Origin: Rhodospirillum sp.
GTDB lineage: Bacteria > Pseudomonadota > Alphaproteobacteria > Rhodospirillales > Rhodospirillaceae
NCBI GenBank assembly: GCA_021741145.1
Contig: JAIOYK010000001.1
Location: 124,001 to 188,000, forward strand
Length of the DNA stretch: 64,000 bases
Reading direction: 5' to 3'
The position numbers were made by a program, and so were the translations under genes. The notes beneath the pieces are model-generated. The model searched no databases and was not told the DNA's origin. It worked only from the letters and a program-made list of their open reading frames with translations. Below are positions 21,647-55,205 of this stretch, piece after piece (within the stretch, counting starts at the first letter, position 1; every line of letters begins with the position of its first letter).

Positions 21647-22501
21647 CTACCGGACCATGAGCAGGGGAATCTGGCAAGACCGGATCAGAGTGGTGGTGGT
21701 GCTGCCGATGATCAGATGACGGATGCGGGAATGGCCATAGGCACCGACCACCATCAGGTCGATCCCCTCGTCCTTGACCACCTTGGCGATGACCTCGTCG
21801 GCTTCGCCGGGGAGCAGACGGGTGGTGGCGGTCCGGCCCTTGGCCTCCAGCCAACCCTTTGCCTCCTCCAGGGAGTGGCGGTTCTCGGCGGTATCCGCGC
21901 CCACCCTCAGCAAAAGGATGTCCAGACCTTCCAGCAGCTTGCCCTCCGCGGCTCGCTCCAGGGCCTTGCGCGCGCTGGGGCCGCCGTCATAGGCGATCAG
22001 ACCTTTCTTGATGGGCCTGAAGGCGCGGGAGGTCACCAGGACCGGCTTCTTGGAGCCCCGCACCACCCGCTCCAGGTTGGCGCCCAGGTGCATGGTCTCG
22101 AAGTCGGCGGCTTCGCCACGCTTGCCGATGACCACCAGATCGGCGCGGTCCTCGATCTCGGCGACGGTCTCGATCAGCCCACCGTTGCGCAGGGTCTGGC
22201 GGACCTCCACGACCCCCTTGTCCTTGAGGTGGGCTTCGGCCTCGGCCAGGACCTGACGGCCCCGGGCTTGGAGGATCTTGCTTTTCTGGGCGTCCAGGTC
22301 GGCGAGTTGGGCCAGCAGATCCTCTCGCTCGTTGGCGCCCATGTTGCCCGACCAGTCCGAGGAGTCCGCGTGCCCCCGATTATGGTCGATGGCGTGGAGC
22401 ACCTCCACCGAGGCGCCGATCTTGGTCGCGGCCCAACCGGCATGGTCGTAGACGCTCCCGGCGTATACGGATCCATCGGTGCAGACGAGAATATGAGGCA
22501 T
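21647..22501 (-). CDS. Tandem universal stress protein (two Usp domains)
   Basis: A 284-residue protein built of two Usp folds (about 1-150 and 155-284). The second ends in the nucleotide-loop region VVGAYGHSRIRHLIIGSTTTT followed by the IPLLMVR strand. The first has VVIGKRGEAADFETMHLG at the matching place, which lacks the usual ATP-binding GxxG-x9-G spacing. The start ATG has GGGAGACG upstream. It follows a SulP permease gene on the same strand, separated by a 126-bp paired-hairpin element that ends 16 bp before this start codon, so its expression may depend on that element. Confidence 0.9.
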   Translation of the reverse strand: MPHILVCTDGSVYAGSVYDHAGWAATKIGASVEVLHAIDHNRGHADSSDWSGNMGANEREDLLAQLADLDAQKSKILQARGRQVLAEAEAHLKDKGVVEVRQTLRNGGLIETVAEIEDRADLVVIGKRGEAADFETMHLGANLERVVRGSKKPVLVTSRAFRPIKKGLIAYDGGPSARKALERAAEGKLLEGLDILLLRVGADTAENRHSLEEAKGWLEAKGRTATTRLLPGEADEVIAKVVKDEGIDLMVVGAYGHSRIRHLIIGSTTTTLIRSCQIPLLMVR

Positions 22502-22516
22502 GGTCCGAACGTCTCC

Positions 22517-22642
22517 CTAGAGTGCTCCGAGATCAAGTTGGGCCACGTCTTGGCCCAACTTGATCTCGAAGGTACTCTAAAATTTATAAGATTAGAGTGA
22601 AACTGGGCCGGCTTGACTCAAGCTGATCCAGTTTCACTCTAG
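22517..22642. repeat. Paired-hairpin element, copy 1 (126 bp)
   Basis: Bounded by CTAGAGT on the left and ACTCTAG on the right. It holds hairpin A (TAGAGT ends, long inner stem CAAGTTGGGCCA/TGGCCCAACTTG), a 13-base A/T linker, and hairpin B (TAGAGTGAAACTGG/CCAGTTTCACTCTA). The right end supplies the TAG stop of the SulP gene; the left end lies 16 bp before the Usp start codon. A second copy of identical length lies at 51518-51643. Confidence 0.92.
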
Positions 22643-24123
22643 TGCCCGATGGAAGTATCTATTGCCCCGGGCTTGTCATGCACCCCGAGCTTGTCGACGA
22701 TGGTGGCGCTGGCCTCGTTCAGGCCGACGACCTCCACGTCCGCGCCCTCGCGGCGGAACTTGAGCACCACCTTGTCAAGGGCGCCCACGCCGGACAAGTC
22801 CCACATGTGGGCGGCGGTCAAATCGATGGTCACTTTCTCCAGCGCCTCCTTCAGGTCGAAGGCCTTGGAAAAGGCCTCCGCCGAGGCGAAGAAGACCTGT
22901 CCCTCGACGGTATAGACCCGATGGCGCCCCTCGGCGTCGATGGTCGAGGTGATGCGCAGGAAGCGGGCCACCTTGCGGGCGAAGAACAGGGCGGCGAGCA
23001 ACACGCCCACCAGCACGCCCTTGGCCAGATCGTGGGTAAAGACCGTCGTCAGGACCGTCCCCAGGGTCACCAGACTGGTGCTGACCGGGTGGACGCGGAT
23101 ATCGGTCAGGGACTTCCAGGAGAAGGTCCCGATGGAGACCATGATCATCACCGCCACCAGGGCGGCCATGGGGATCAGCTTCACCCAATCCGACAGGGCG
23201 ATCAGCAGGACCATCAGGGAGACACCGGCGCAGAGGGTGGACAGTCGCCCCCGCCCGCCGGATTTCACGTTGATCACCGACTGACCGATCATGGCGCAGC
23301 CCGCCATGCCACCAAAGAAACCGGACACGATATTGGCGATACCCTGCCCCCTACACTCGCGGTCCCGATTGCTTTCGGTATCAGTTAGATCGTCGACCAC
23401 CTGGGCGGTCATCAGGGACTCCAGCAGACCCACCACGGCGATGGTCACCGAGACGGGCAACACCGTCCACAGGGTGTTCAGGGTCAGGGGAATATCGGGC
23501 AGGGAGAAAATCGGCAGGGTTTCGGGCAGGGCCCCCAGATCGGCGACGGTGCGCACGTCCAGGTCGAGGAAGACGGCCAAACCGGTCATGGACAGGATGG
23601 CCACCAGGGGCGAGGGCACGGCCTTGGTTACGTAAGGGAACAGGTAGATCACCGCCAAGGCGCCGCCACAGAGGGCATAGGTTTCCCAGGTCACGCCCAC
23701 CAGTTCGGGCAATTGGGCCATGAAAATCAGGATGGCCAAGGCATTGACGAAACCCGTCATCACGGCGCGGGAGACGAAGCGCATATAACGCCCCAGCTTG
23801 AGCAAACCGAAAAGGATCTGCACCACGCCGGTCACCACCGTGGCGGCAAGCAGGTATTGCAGGCCATGGTCGCGCACGATGTCGATCATCAGCAGCGCCG
23901 TGGCCGCGGTCGCCGCCGAAATCATACCCGGGCGACCGCCGGTGAAGGCGATGGTGATGGCGATACAGACCGAGGCGTAAAGACCCACCTTGGGATCCAC
24001 GCCCGCGATGACGGAGAAGGCGATGGCTTCCGGAATCAGCGCCAGGGCGACCACCAAACCGGCGAGGACATCGCCGCGGATATTGGACAGCCAATCAGCC
24101 TTCAGACGGTAAGGTTCGATCAT
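22639..24123 (-). CDS. SulP-family anion permease with STAS domain
   Basis: A 494-residue inner-membrane transporter of the SulP/SLC26 family, of the BicA-like short type. The membrane part opens with [20 protein letters not shown] (family signature), continues through [20 protein letters not shown] and has the conserved [20 protein letters not shown] loop. A cytoplasmic STAS domain fills the last 110 residues or so ([20 protein letters not shown]). The substrate may be sulfate, bicarbonate or another anion; sequence alone does not decide. ATG at 24123. The TAG stop belongs to the inserted 126-bp hairpin element, so the original C-terminus may have been altered. The Usp gene follows. Confidence 0.92.
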
Positions 24124-24248
24124 GGCGCGGCTCTTCCCGATCCGATCCGTTGGTCGGACACCATGGAAATCCAATGGAACAAGAGCGACGACCTGTCGCG
24201 CTCCCTCGGGGGGCTGGCCCGAAAGCTGGATTGTCTGGCGCCTGACGG

Positions 24249-24279
24249 AAAAATAAAAAGGCGACACCGATGCGTCGCC
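24249..24279 (-). terminator. Rho-independent terminator
   Basis: GGCGAC and GTCGCC form a 6-bp stem with an 8-base loop. On the minus strand it is followed by TTTTTATTTTT, a near-perfect U-tract. It should stop minus-strand transcription coming from the hemerythrin/TRAP side before the SulP promoter. Confidence 0.85.
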
Positions 24280-24327
24280 CGTTCGCCGGAACTCTATCGG
24301 CATGGGAGAGTTATTGCAAGTGCGAAG

Positions 24328-24362
24328 CAAAAGGCGGCGGGTCCCCTCCCGGTGGACCCGCC
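24328..24362 (-). terminator. Second minus-strand terminator-like hairpin
   Basis: A perfect 9-bp stem (GGCGGGTCC/GGACCCGCC) with a 9-base loop, followed on the minus strand by GCCTTTTGC. It lies about 310 bp past the hemerythrin stop and is a moderate-strength terminator candidate. Confidence 0.55.
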
Positions 24363-24414
24363 ATGCTTGCGAAATCCTCTTGCCCATGACGGAGCGGAGC
24401 GCCAAACCGCTTGC

Positions 24415-24627
24415 AGGAACAGCAAGCATAAAAAGACCCTGGCCGCCCTCTTTCGCGACCCCGTTTCCGGGACCATCGCCTGGGACGATATCGAGGCTTT
24501 GTTGCTCGCGGTGGGAGCAGAGGGGATCGAAGGCTCCGGCGCCCGTGAAGGGCGATGTCATCGCATCCTTCCATCGGCCACATCCCGCCAAGGAGGCGAA
24601 GCGGTATCAGGTCAAGGGGCGGTTAGG
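24415..24627 (+). pseudogene. Decayed HicA-family toxin gene
   Basis: The plus strand encodes [35 protein letters not shown] and GIEGSGAR in one frame, then [20 protein letters not shown] in the frame one base later. Joined, these are the two halves of the HicA/YcfA-type toxin family (double-stranded-RNA-binding fold, mRNA interferase). The frame changes between about 24545 and 24556, where a few residues also seem missing. At the place of the start codon the sequence is AGG followed by AACAGCAAGCAT, consistent with ATG having mutated. No hicB antitoxin gene follows. So the toxin is inactive on three counts. The catalytic His of the family (in the GSR-adjacent strand region) cannot be judged. 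Confidence 0.75.
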
Positions 24628-51517: not shown

Positions 51518-51643
51518 CTAGAGTATTCCGAGATCAAGCTGGGCCGCTTCGCGGACCAGCTTGGCCTCGAAGATACTCTAAATTCTATAGAATTAGAGTG
51601 AAACGGGGCCAGCTTGGCCCAAGCTGATCCAGTTTCACTCTAG
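51518..51643. repeat. Paired-hairpin element, copy 2 (126 bp)
   Basis: Same length and plan as copy 1 at 22517-22642: CTAGAGT...ACTCTAG ends, hairpin A (TAGAGTAT/ATACTCTA outer, CAAGCTGG/CCAGCTTG inner), palindromic linker ATTCTATAGAAT, hairpin B (TAGAGTGAAAC/GTTTCACTCTA outer, CAGCTTG/CAAGCTG inner). Relative to copy 1 several arms changed on both sides, keeping the pairing. The right end supplies the last two codons and the TGA stop of ureG. Confidence 0.92.
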
Positions 51644-52270
51644 CGCCGACTTCTCCAACCCGCCCGCGTGTTCGATAAAGGCAACGACACGATCCAGCCC
51701 CGCGCCGGTCTTGAGGTTGGTCATCACATAGGGCCGATCACCGCGCATGCGCTTGGTGTCCGCTTCCATCACATCCAGGTTCGCGCCCACGAATGGCGCC
51801 AGATCGGTCTTGTTGATGATCAGCAGGTCCGAGCGGGTGATCCCCGGCCCGCCCTTGCGCGGGATTTTTTCCCCCGCCGCCACGTCGATCACATAAAGGG
51901 TGATATCGGCCAGCTCCGGGCTGAAGGTGGCGGCCAGATTGTCCCCGCCACTTTCGACGAAGATCAGATCCAGGGTCGGGAATTTTTCCCGCATGGTGTC
52001 GATGGCCGCGAGGTTCATCGACGCGTCCTCGCGGATGGCCGTATGGGGGCAGCCGCCCGTTTCCACCCCCATGATCCGCTCCGCCGGGAGCGCGCCGGTC
52101 TCGGTGAGGATGCGTTGGTCTTCCTTGGTGTAAATATCGTTGGTGATGGCCGCCAGATCATGGACCGGCGCCATCACCCGGCAGAGATTTTCCAACAGGG
52201 CCGTCTTGCCCGAGCCCACGGGGCCTCCGACACCGACGCGCAGGGGATTGCTGGGGGAGACGTCACTCAT
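51635..52270 (-). CDS. ureG: Urease accessory GTPase UreG
   Basis: A 211-residue SIMIBI-class GTPase that drives nickel delivery to urease. P-loop [16 protein letters not shown], the metal-binding Cys-Pro-His region in [34 protein letters not shown] and the base motif [12 protein letters not shown] are all present. The start overlaps ureF by 4 bp. Its last codons, LE and the TGA, lie within a 126-bp hairpin element. Confidence 0.97.
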
Positions 52271-53495: not shown

Positions 53496-55205
53496 CTAAA
53501 ACAGGTGGTAGCGCTGGGCCATGGGCAGAACCTCGGCGGGTTCGCAGGTGAGGAGTTCCCCATCGGCGCGCACCTCGTAGGTCTCTGGGTCCACCTCGAT
53601 TTTCGGCGTGGCGCTGTTCAGCACCATATCGGCCTTGCCCACGGTCCGGCAGCCCGTCACGGCCAACAGCGTCCGGGCCAAGCCGAGCGTATGGCCGACG
53701 TCCGCGTCCAGGGCGGCCTGGGACACGAAGGTCACCGAACTGGCGGTGAGTGACTTACCGAAGGCACCGAACATGGGCCGGTAGTGGACCGGCTGGGGCG
53801 TGGGGATGGAGGCGTTCGGGTCGCCCATGGCCGCCGCGGCGATGGTCCCGCATTTCAGCACGATGTCCGGCTTGACCCCGAAGAAGGCGGGCTTCCACAG
53901 GACCAAATCGGCCAGCTTGCCCGGCTCGACGGAGCCCACATGGGCGGAGATGCCGTGGGTGATGGCCGGATTGATGGTGTATTTGGCGATATAGCGCCGG
54001 ACCCGCAGGTTGTCGTTGTCCCCTGTTTCTCCAGGCAGGCGGCCGCGCTGGACCTTCATCTTATGGGCGGTCTGCCAGGTGCGGATGACCACCTCGCCCA
54101 CCCGACCCATGGCCTGGCTGTCCGAGGAGATCATGGAGAAGGCGCCGATATCATGGAGGATATCCTCCGCCGCGATGGTCTCCCGGCGGATGCGGCTTTC
54201 GGCGAAGGCCACGTCTTCCGGAATGCGCGGGTCCAGGTGGTGGCAGACCATGAGCATGTCCAGGTGCTCATCAAGGGTGTTCACCGTGAAGGGGCGCGTG
54301 GGGTTGGTGGAACTGGGCAGGACATTGGCGACACCGGCCAGTTTGATGATATCCGGCGCATGGCCGCCGCCCGCGCCCTCGGTATGGAAGGCGTGGATGG
54401 TCCGCCCCTTGAAGGCGGCGACGGTGTTCTCGACGAAACCGCTTTCGTTGAGCGTGTCGGTGTGGATGGCGACCTGCACATCCCATTTGTCCGCCACGGT
54501 CAGGCAGGTGTCGATGGCGCTGGGCGTCGTGCCCCAATCCTCGTGCAGTTTCAGGCCAATGGCACCCGCGCGCACCTGTTCCTCCAGGGCCTGGGGCAGG
54601 CTGGCGTTGCCCTTGCCGAAGAAGCCCAGGTTCATGGGCAGCCCCTCCGCCGCCTGAAGCATGCGCGCCATATGCCAGGGACCGGGGGTGCAGGTGGTGG
54701 CGTTGGTGCCCTCCGCCGGACCCGTGCCACCACCCAGCATGGTGGTGATGCCGGACGTGAGGGCGTCATCCACCTGCTGGGGGCAAATCCAATGGATATG
54801 GGCGTCGATGCCGCCCGCGGTGAGGATCCGGCCCTCGCCCGCGATGACCTCGGTCCCGGGGCCGATGATGATGTCCACATTGGGCTGAACGTCGGGGTTC
54901 CCGGCCTTGCCGATGGCGGCGATCCGGCCCTCCTTCAGCCCCACGTCGGCCTTCACGACGCCCCAGTGGTCGACGATCAGGGCGTTGGTGATGACCGTGT
55001 CCACGGCCCCTTGGGCGCGGGAGTATTGGGACTGGCCCATGCCGTCCCGGATAACCTTGCCACCGCCGAACTTCACTTCCTCGCCATAGGTGGTGAAGTC
55101 CTTTTCCACTTCGATGATCAGGTCCGTGTCGGCCAGACGCAGGCGGTCGCCGGTGGTCGGGCCGAACATGGCGGCATAGGCGTCGCGCTCGATTTCGAAT
55201 GCCAT
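53496..55205 (-). CDS. ureC: Urease alpha subunit
   Basis: A 569-residue catalytic subunit hydrolysing urea to ammonia and carbamate. Nickel ligands are visible: the HxH in [13 protein letters not shown], the carbamylated Lys in [12 protein letters not shown], His in [13 protein letters not shown] and [15 protein letters not shown]. The mobile flap Cys/His is in [19 protein letters not shown]. Gene order ureA-ureB-ureC with separate small subunits is the standard bacterial form. Confidence 0.98.

Follow-up and report, generated by a model that had tools for sequence, protein, structure and literature searches.

A two-hairpin mobile element of Rhodospirillum that often lies on natural stop codons and is probably moved by an IS630-type transposase

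A paired-hairpin repeat of 126 bases from Rhodospirillum sp. was analyzed in a 64-kb window, which is the whole stretch of DNA under study, and in the genomes of relatives. It is a real, dispersed, non-autonomous mobile element and represents a new family of two-armed, TA-bounded small alphaproteobacterial repeats. Many copies sit on a natural stop codon, and the host proteins that could be tested there are of full length. Judged from the sequences of its ends, its movement is probably driven by a transposase of the IS630 type.

Structure of the element and its host genes

Two copies of 126 bases each were found in the window, at 22517-22642 and 51518-51643. The sequence confirmed what the preliminary description had given for both, namely their positions and length, the CTAGAGT/ACTCTAG ends, and two palindromes with an A/T linker inside. 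The layout on the plus strand is CTAGAGT, hairpin A (62 bases), an A/T linker of 13 bases, hairpin B (49 bases) and ACTCTAG, and the outer 7 bases form an inverted repeat (CTAGAGT/ACTCTAG) in both window copies. In the first copy, hairpin A (TAGAGT...ACTCTA) extends over 22518-22579, the A/T-rich linker, read in the sequence and the alignment, over 22580-22592, and hairpin B (TAGAGTGAAAC...GTTTCACTCTA) over 22593-22641, all on the plus strand. The same parts of the second copy (51518-51643, plus strand) are located at 51519-51580, 51581-51593 and 51594-51642. Both hairpins open with TAGAGT and close with ACTCTA, and both were delimited by folding and covariation; the left arm of hairpin A resembles an IS630 end. 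Folding was far above that of shuffled sequences on either strand, with z values of -16.6 (first copy) and -8.2 (second copy) for the plus strand. The left TA of the first copy (22518-22519), read in the sequence, may be a copy of the target dinucleotide, and the outermost base of the element tracks the host; at purH, for example, it is the T of a CAT (His) codon. At its tip, hairpin B of the first copy carries GACTC, a GANTC site (22615-22619, plus strand).

The right end of the first copy terminates a SulP-family transporter gene on the minus strand (22639-24591; ORF and domain matches), the TAG stop of which (22639-22641, minus strand) is located on the element end. Its C-terminal 500 residues matched NCBIfam sulP to 555 of 565 with 292 bits (below the cut-off of 380) and Pfam STAS to 97 of 106. 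The left end had been placed 16 bp from the start of a gene named Usp by the preliminary description; the ORF of this Usp-like gene (21647-22501, minus strand) begins at 22501, which leaves 15 bases to the element. In the second copy, the ureG gene (51635-52270, minus strand; TIGR00101, the model for UreG, was matched up to position 195 of 199) has its last two codons and its TGA stop inside the element.

A search of Rfam gave no match for the element. The sole Rfam match in the window was 5_ureB_sRNA at 54768-55052 (89.7 bits), antisense to a large minus-strand ORF (53496-55205) near ureG, and it may merely mirror conserved urease coding sequence.

Copies in the genome and among relatives

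The draft assembly of the own genome (G000) comprises 5.47 Mb in 110 contigs. It holds far more than the two copies that, with no homologue elsewhere, would have spoken against the reading of the preliminary description. BLAST with the first copy gave 95 overlapping matches, and a covariance model (R1) built from 19 G000 copies, a search that had been proposed together with a copy count, gave 101 matches at E<=1. The matches were merged and read by eye into 46 places, with about 20 near full length; this number excludes L073, which is located at a contig start, and L172, a decayed remnant. Four of the 46 places (L077, L078, L079 and L080) are supported by model matches of low significance (E from 0.003 to 0.16), and some places at contig ends are possibly halves of one copy. 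The remaining copies are single hairpins, truncated or decayed. Three kinds of variant were distinguished, including a sub-type of about 153 bases with a short second hairpin within the tip of A (L043, L045, L048, L070 and L075), a single A hairpin with TAG on both sides (L028 and L074), and short forms (L082 and L083) that consist of the left arm of A and the right arm of B joined together. A solitary exact B end at C32:18920 proved to be a decayed remnant of the element and not an IS end. One copy (L036, G000:C46:3485) is located in a gene resembling those of type I restriction endonucleases; the gene continues for 65 bases inside the element, and its EcoEI_R_C domain matched only to 111 of 163.

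Among 61 genomes (the own genome, one from its genus, and others from its family and order), matches at E<=0.01 were obtained in three, namely G000, G013 and G025, the last with one weak match. G013 belongs to another genus and yielded 34 model matches at 17 places, which form a related subfamily. With stricter filters, no match at E<=0.01 was found in the same-genus genome G001 or in G030, which belongs to the genus of G013. In the order, 6 of 317 genomes matched at E<=1e-4, and a search of plasmids gave no match to the element. A pattern scan of the named genome collection returned a single stretch in a Chloroflexi MAG, which on reading was a chance match; the own and very near genomes were possibly left out of that collection. 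The DNA of the two window loci was compared with G001, G013 and G030, in which synteny was too poor for orthologous empty sites, and protein ends were compared instead. With copies dispersed in both orientations, a patchy presence among relatives and TA-bounded ends that are common to IS630 transposons, the earlier suggestion of a non-autonomous mobile element is well supported.

In G163, G208, G075 and G025 the plan is the same and the sequence is other. Seven such loci were observed (L196 and L200-L202 in G163, L197 in G208, L198 in G075 and L054 in G025), and they form a wider superfamily in the order. As read by eye, a GANTC variant (GACTC, GAGTC, GAATC or GATTC) is at a hairpin tip in four of the seven (L196, L197, L198 and L200) and absent in L201, L202 and L054.

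Several contigs of G013 (C8, C9, C30, C43, C102, C108 and C117) start or end within the element, as if near-identical copies had disrupted the assembly. Four G013 copies (L053, L055, L056 and L057) are joined directly to other palindromic repeats via a common CTAG or CCAG, as if elements insert into one another's ends. The G013 locus L088 contains two paired-hairpin elements of other sequence families (24-127 and 221-329), near each other and upstream of a CRISPR-like repeat array, and the second of these appears to interrupt a cas1-like reading frame.

Occupancy of natural stop codons

Genes were called by a codon model trained on the window, and the three frames leading into each element end were then scored. 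TA is present at both termini of the element. The 46 copies in the own genome have 92 ends. Setting aside 36 degenerate or truncated ends and 44 without a coding frame leaves 12 coding ends; nine of these had the TAG in frame, and the two other frames were found at two and one ends. The 20 ends in G013 comprised nine degenerate or truncated, four non-coding and seven coding ends (six with the TAG in frame, one in another frame). Taken together, the TAG was in frame at 15 of the 19 intact ends that abut coding sequence in the two genomes (binomial test against 1/3, p=6e-5). The four ends in other frames were the left end of L001 on the Usp start side, which as a coding end is probably spurious, L014 (UreG), the type I restriction gene (L036) and L065. 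Stop overlaps at degenerate ends were also seen outside this count, in L016, at the right end of L074 and, with TGA, in L075. Thus the preference for gene ends in the preliminary description was correct and can be stated more sharply, as many copies are located on the stop codon itself.

Completeness was checked for the twelve proteins of the own genome whose TAG is on an element. Family models were reached to their ends for PurH (510/510 and 511/511) and MacB (648/648), and nearly so for TrkH (482/483) and TIGR02466 (200/201). L17 matched to the last position of its model (112/112) and had 19 further residues. The proteins at L038 and L052 had no family match, and at L016, L043, L048 and L082 the family models stop short of the protein end. 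PurH was searched in 20 relatives, of which one was cut by a contig end and one had no match; the other 18 ended at the same last residue, followed by a stop, without the element. For TrkH, 24 loci were returned and ten relatives compared, and nine shared the end point; the remaining locus, near a contig end, read otherwise. A single-hairpin copy between the convergent trkH and macB-like genes terminates both. Since the proteins are complete and the TAG at the element ends is in frame, the element in these copies lies on natural stop codons without truncation. The preliminary description had stated that the element supplies a stop codon. This is right in that the SulP TAG is on its right end; as the tested proteins are not truncated, the element is better said to restore the stop codon of the host. 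UreG of the second window copy is an exception, in which the last two codons and the TGA (of CTA-GAG-TGA in the right end) come from the element; UreG of G030 ends a few residues before it.

The supply of targets was measured in 183 kb of own-genome sequence outside elements. CTAG occurred 44 times, with 15 within genes, 20 intergenic and nine at stop codons, while YTAR occurred 101 times within genes, 127 times in intergenic sequence and 32 times at stop codons. If insertions in genes are lost, 31% (CTAG) or 20% (YTAR) of copies are expected on stops. Stop occupancy in the own genome was 11 of the 40 copies with an intact end (p=0.74 against the CTAG and p=0.17 against the YTAR supply). It was 6 of 10 in G013 (p=0.055 and 0.007, respectively), for which the supply figures are those of G000 sequence. 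Therefore, no stop-codon preference beyond target supply is needed for the own genome, where 11 of 40 is not above the CTAG supply, and target choice with loss of in-gene insertions would suffice for its stop-codon habit. The habit would then follow from the target of the element and its terminal G.

Pairing of the hairpin arms

The paired changes between the two window copies in the preliminary description are real, with CAAGTTGG/CCAACTTG against CAAGCTGG/CCAGCTTG, and a G-T pair against A-T in hairpin B. Across 19 copies of the own genome, pairing holds in 92.5% of cells, and changes on both sides were seen in 13 of the 49 pairs, a value reached by 0 of 500 shuffles. In a set of 17 chosen copies (12 from G000 and five from G013), 17 of 49 pairs changed on both sides, again with 0 of 500 shuffles as high. 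The number of further pair types was unexceptional, being reached by 49 of 500 shuffles in the 19-copy set and 79 of 500 in the 17-copy set. Some changes are fixed between G000 and G013; one example in hairpin B is GAGTG/CACTC against GACTG/CAGTC. Mean identity was 83% among the 12 copies from G000, 93% among the five from G013 and 80% between the two sets. GANTC is at the tip of B in 11 of 19 aligned G000 copies and in four of five full-length G013 copies, and it is absent from the others. The hairpin arms are kept matched. Matched arms may reflect an RNA function, a need of the transposition process, or palindrome repair alike.

The element could be a cassette kept by the host for a regulatory RNA (3' end stabilizer, terminator or processing site), the pairing of which is selected for RNA function. 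The changes on both sides of pairs over two genomes, the location at gene ends and the very stable fold would all agree with this. However, the element is present or absent between relatives, and either of its ends may be at the stop codon (seven A ends and four B ends face the stop in the 11 cases of the own genome). Decayed and partial copies are numerous, no T tract was seen by eye after the hairpins, Rfam offers no counterpart, and the pairing is equally explicable by the transposition process or by palindrome repair. We consider such a cassette improbable; what stood of this second suggestion of the preliminary description is the conserved pairing.

The two-hairpin plan and conserved pairing also resemble REP doublets, which consist of two hairpins, and a REPIN-like pair could be moved as single-stranded DNA by a RAYT (IS200/IS605-like tyrosine) transposase. 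The TA-bounded ends, the arms of 22-27 pairs and the IS630-like ends speak against such movement, which seems very unlikely.

Putative target duplication and the candidate transposase

Each end has its TA within a YTAR site, which suggests a transposase that duplicates TA. In five copies (L032, L033, L034, L040 and L074) the outer bases of one side differ from those of the other, such as CTAG...CTAA, consistent with a duplication of the two bases TA and not of four bases. The TA on both sides together with the unequal outer bases may reflect a duplication of TA at the target. IS630 is said to prefer TA and CTAG, as Tenzen and Ohtsubo reportedly found in 1991.

The closest likeness of ends was found in G013, in an IS630-type remnant (PF13358; L088) with a shortened transposase and the gene-proximal end CTAGAGTGCTCTGATCTCGGG. 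The remnant, too, is directly adjacent to a stop codon, that of an ORF of 117 codons. After CTAGAG, its gene-proximal end agrees with the left arm of hairpin A (end A of G000) at 17 of 25 positions (0 of 20000 shuffles), and the end of L187 agrees with it at 15 of 25 (p=0.0005). Of the 48 end pairs compared, only these two, end A of G000 against L088 and against L187, remained clear after correction, and end A of G013 against L088 was borderline (p=0.001).

A search of 73 family genomes with the L088 transposase gave matches in 15 genomes. Among the 23 IS630 matches, 21 loci were examined for ends (all except L189 and L190). Y-TAGAG was present at both ends, 1,030-1,060 bp apart, in seven of the 21 loci (L175, L176, L177, L179, L181, L185 and L194), and a single Y-TAGAG end was found in eight (L173, L178, L187 and L191; on the 3' side L180, L188, L192 and L193). 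The other six (L174, L182, L183, L184, L186 and L195), some of which are cut by contig ends, had no TAGAG end. At the IS630 3' end of L175, L191 and L194, an open coding frame runs up to the TAG, and at that of L176 the adjoining coding sequence is in another frame. The other IS630 copies share with the element just the five bases TAGAG.

In the own genome, six PF13358 matches were detected, and nearby there were only isolated TAGAGC or TAGAGA stretches and no TAGAGT. No TA-bounded inverted pair was found at the PF13358 loci L087, L090, L092 and L094 of this genome (the small L096 and L099 were left out), and no intact transposase gene with matching ends was found at the PF13358 loci in the draft assemblies of G000 and G013. 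As no matching transposase was found in the own genome, the acting one may have been lost, may be in an assembly gap, or may be another one.

A transposase of the IS5 family (IS427/IS711 kind), which targets YTAR and duplicates TA, or duplicates CTAG/YTAA as for MITEPsy1, could also move the element. PF13340, which we take to be a domain from this IS5-type group (IS427/IS711 kind), matched twice in each of G000 and G013, with one match in each over the cut-off. At L166 in G000, about 1.1 kb from a PF13340 match, a stretch agrees with the A end of G013 at 12 of 14 bases, for which about one such stretch is expected by chance by our estimate. IS711 is described as duplicating TA in YTAR and as associated with Bru-RS repeats (PMC2266754), and MITEPsy1 as duplicating CTAG or YTAA and resembling ISPsy2 (PMC3189936). 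CTAG/YTAR targets are therefore found in IS5-type systems too, which is why this family has to be considered. However, no TA-bounded inverted pair was found at the PF13340 loci L162, L163 and L166 (G000/G013; L167 was left out), the unequal tetramers on the two sides speak against a 4-base duplication, and the longest matching end is that of the IS630 remnant. An IS5-family mover is thus unlikely.

We regard it as likely that the repeat is non-autonomous and mobilized by a transposase of the IS630 type, with a presumed duplication of TA that would restore stop codons; the identity of the transposase is suggested by the likeness of ends. In this mechanism, the element would be the 120 bases between two TA, arranged as TA-[GAGT..hairpin A..ACTC]-TA-A/T linker-TA-[GAGTG..hairpin B..CACTC]-TA. 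The GAGT ends would be recognized in trans by a transposase of the IS630 type, which is Tc1/mariner-like. Insertion would occur at the TA of CTAG or another YTAR site, in either orientation, with duplication of the TA. As G is the first base of both ends, a TAG or TAA stop codon that receives the element at its TA would be rebuilt as TAG at the same codon, and thus the protein would be unchanged. Insertions within genes would be lost.

Comparison with known repeats

The RIME repeats of rhizobia, which have a two-palindrome plan, are by description alphaproteobacterial intergenic repeats like the present element. The CIR repeats of Caulobacter and Brucella are described as about 110 bp long, with two arms (long inverted repeats) and a linker, GANTC at the terminal loop, TA termini and intergenic location (PMC2229807). 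The present element agrees with this described plan in its two long inverted repeats joined by a linker and in its TA termini, while GANTC is at a hairpin tip in only part of its copies. It differs in its length of 126 bp against about 110 bp, and the table of the review gives CIR no terminal inverted repeat whereas the outer 7 bases of the present element are inverted (PMC2229807). As a terminal inverted repeat is present, the element is called CIR-like in plan and is not filed as a CIR. The Delihas review leaves the target duplication and means of movement of CIR open (PMC2229807).

QMITE2 of Coxiella burnetii is described as a small palindromic MITE-like repeat at gene 3' ends that overlaps the last 1-10 bp of several genes, with shorter relatives in Bradyrhizobium and Rhodopseudomonas, and the reason for its 3' preference is called unknown there (PMC5896051). 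It is like the present element, by description, as a small palindromic repeat overlapping gene 3' ends, but it is reported with variable direct repeats of 7-11 nt and an internal GTAG REP (PMC5896051). Bru-RS1 and Bru-RS2 of Brucella are related palindromic repeats of 103 and 106 bp (PMC10800456). By description they are like the present element in being palindromic, of similar size and alphaproteobacterial; the link reported for them differs, being IS711 that inserts in Bru-RS (PMC2266754).

Outside this class, RUP of pneumococcus is given as a non-autonomous repeat of 107 bp with TA ends, for which an IS630 transposase was proposed as mover (PMC2229807). The element resembles it in its small size, lack of autonomy, TA ends and proposed IS630 mover; RUP differs in that the review gives no plan of two arms and linker, and its passages on RUP do not place it at host stop codons (PMC2229807). 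MITEPsy1 of Pseudomonas syringae (100 nt) shares insertion at CTAG or YTAA, but is described with a 4-base duplication and IS5-type ends (PMC3189936). Among the open-licence papers listed on insertion into stop codons and on IS630 with CTAG, no title or abstract reports a repeat located on natural stops, the nearest being QMITE2 (PMC5896051).

We put forward, as a tentative possibility, that one TAGAG-ended IS630 group is the source of the whole alphaproteobacterial two-armed class (CIR, Bru-RS, RIME and the present family), in which each hairpin would be an IS630 reduced to two terminal repeats back to back. High copy number might survive because TA duplication and the terminal G make TAG/TAA stops harmless landing sites. 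For the present family, the link to IS630 ends together with the exact occupancy of stop codons offers a concrete and testable answer to the questions of movement and of the 3' end. The element shows a simple route by which mobile DNA can spread at gene ends and leave the gene unharmed.
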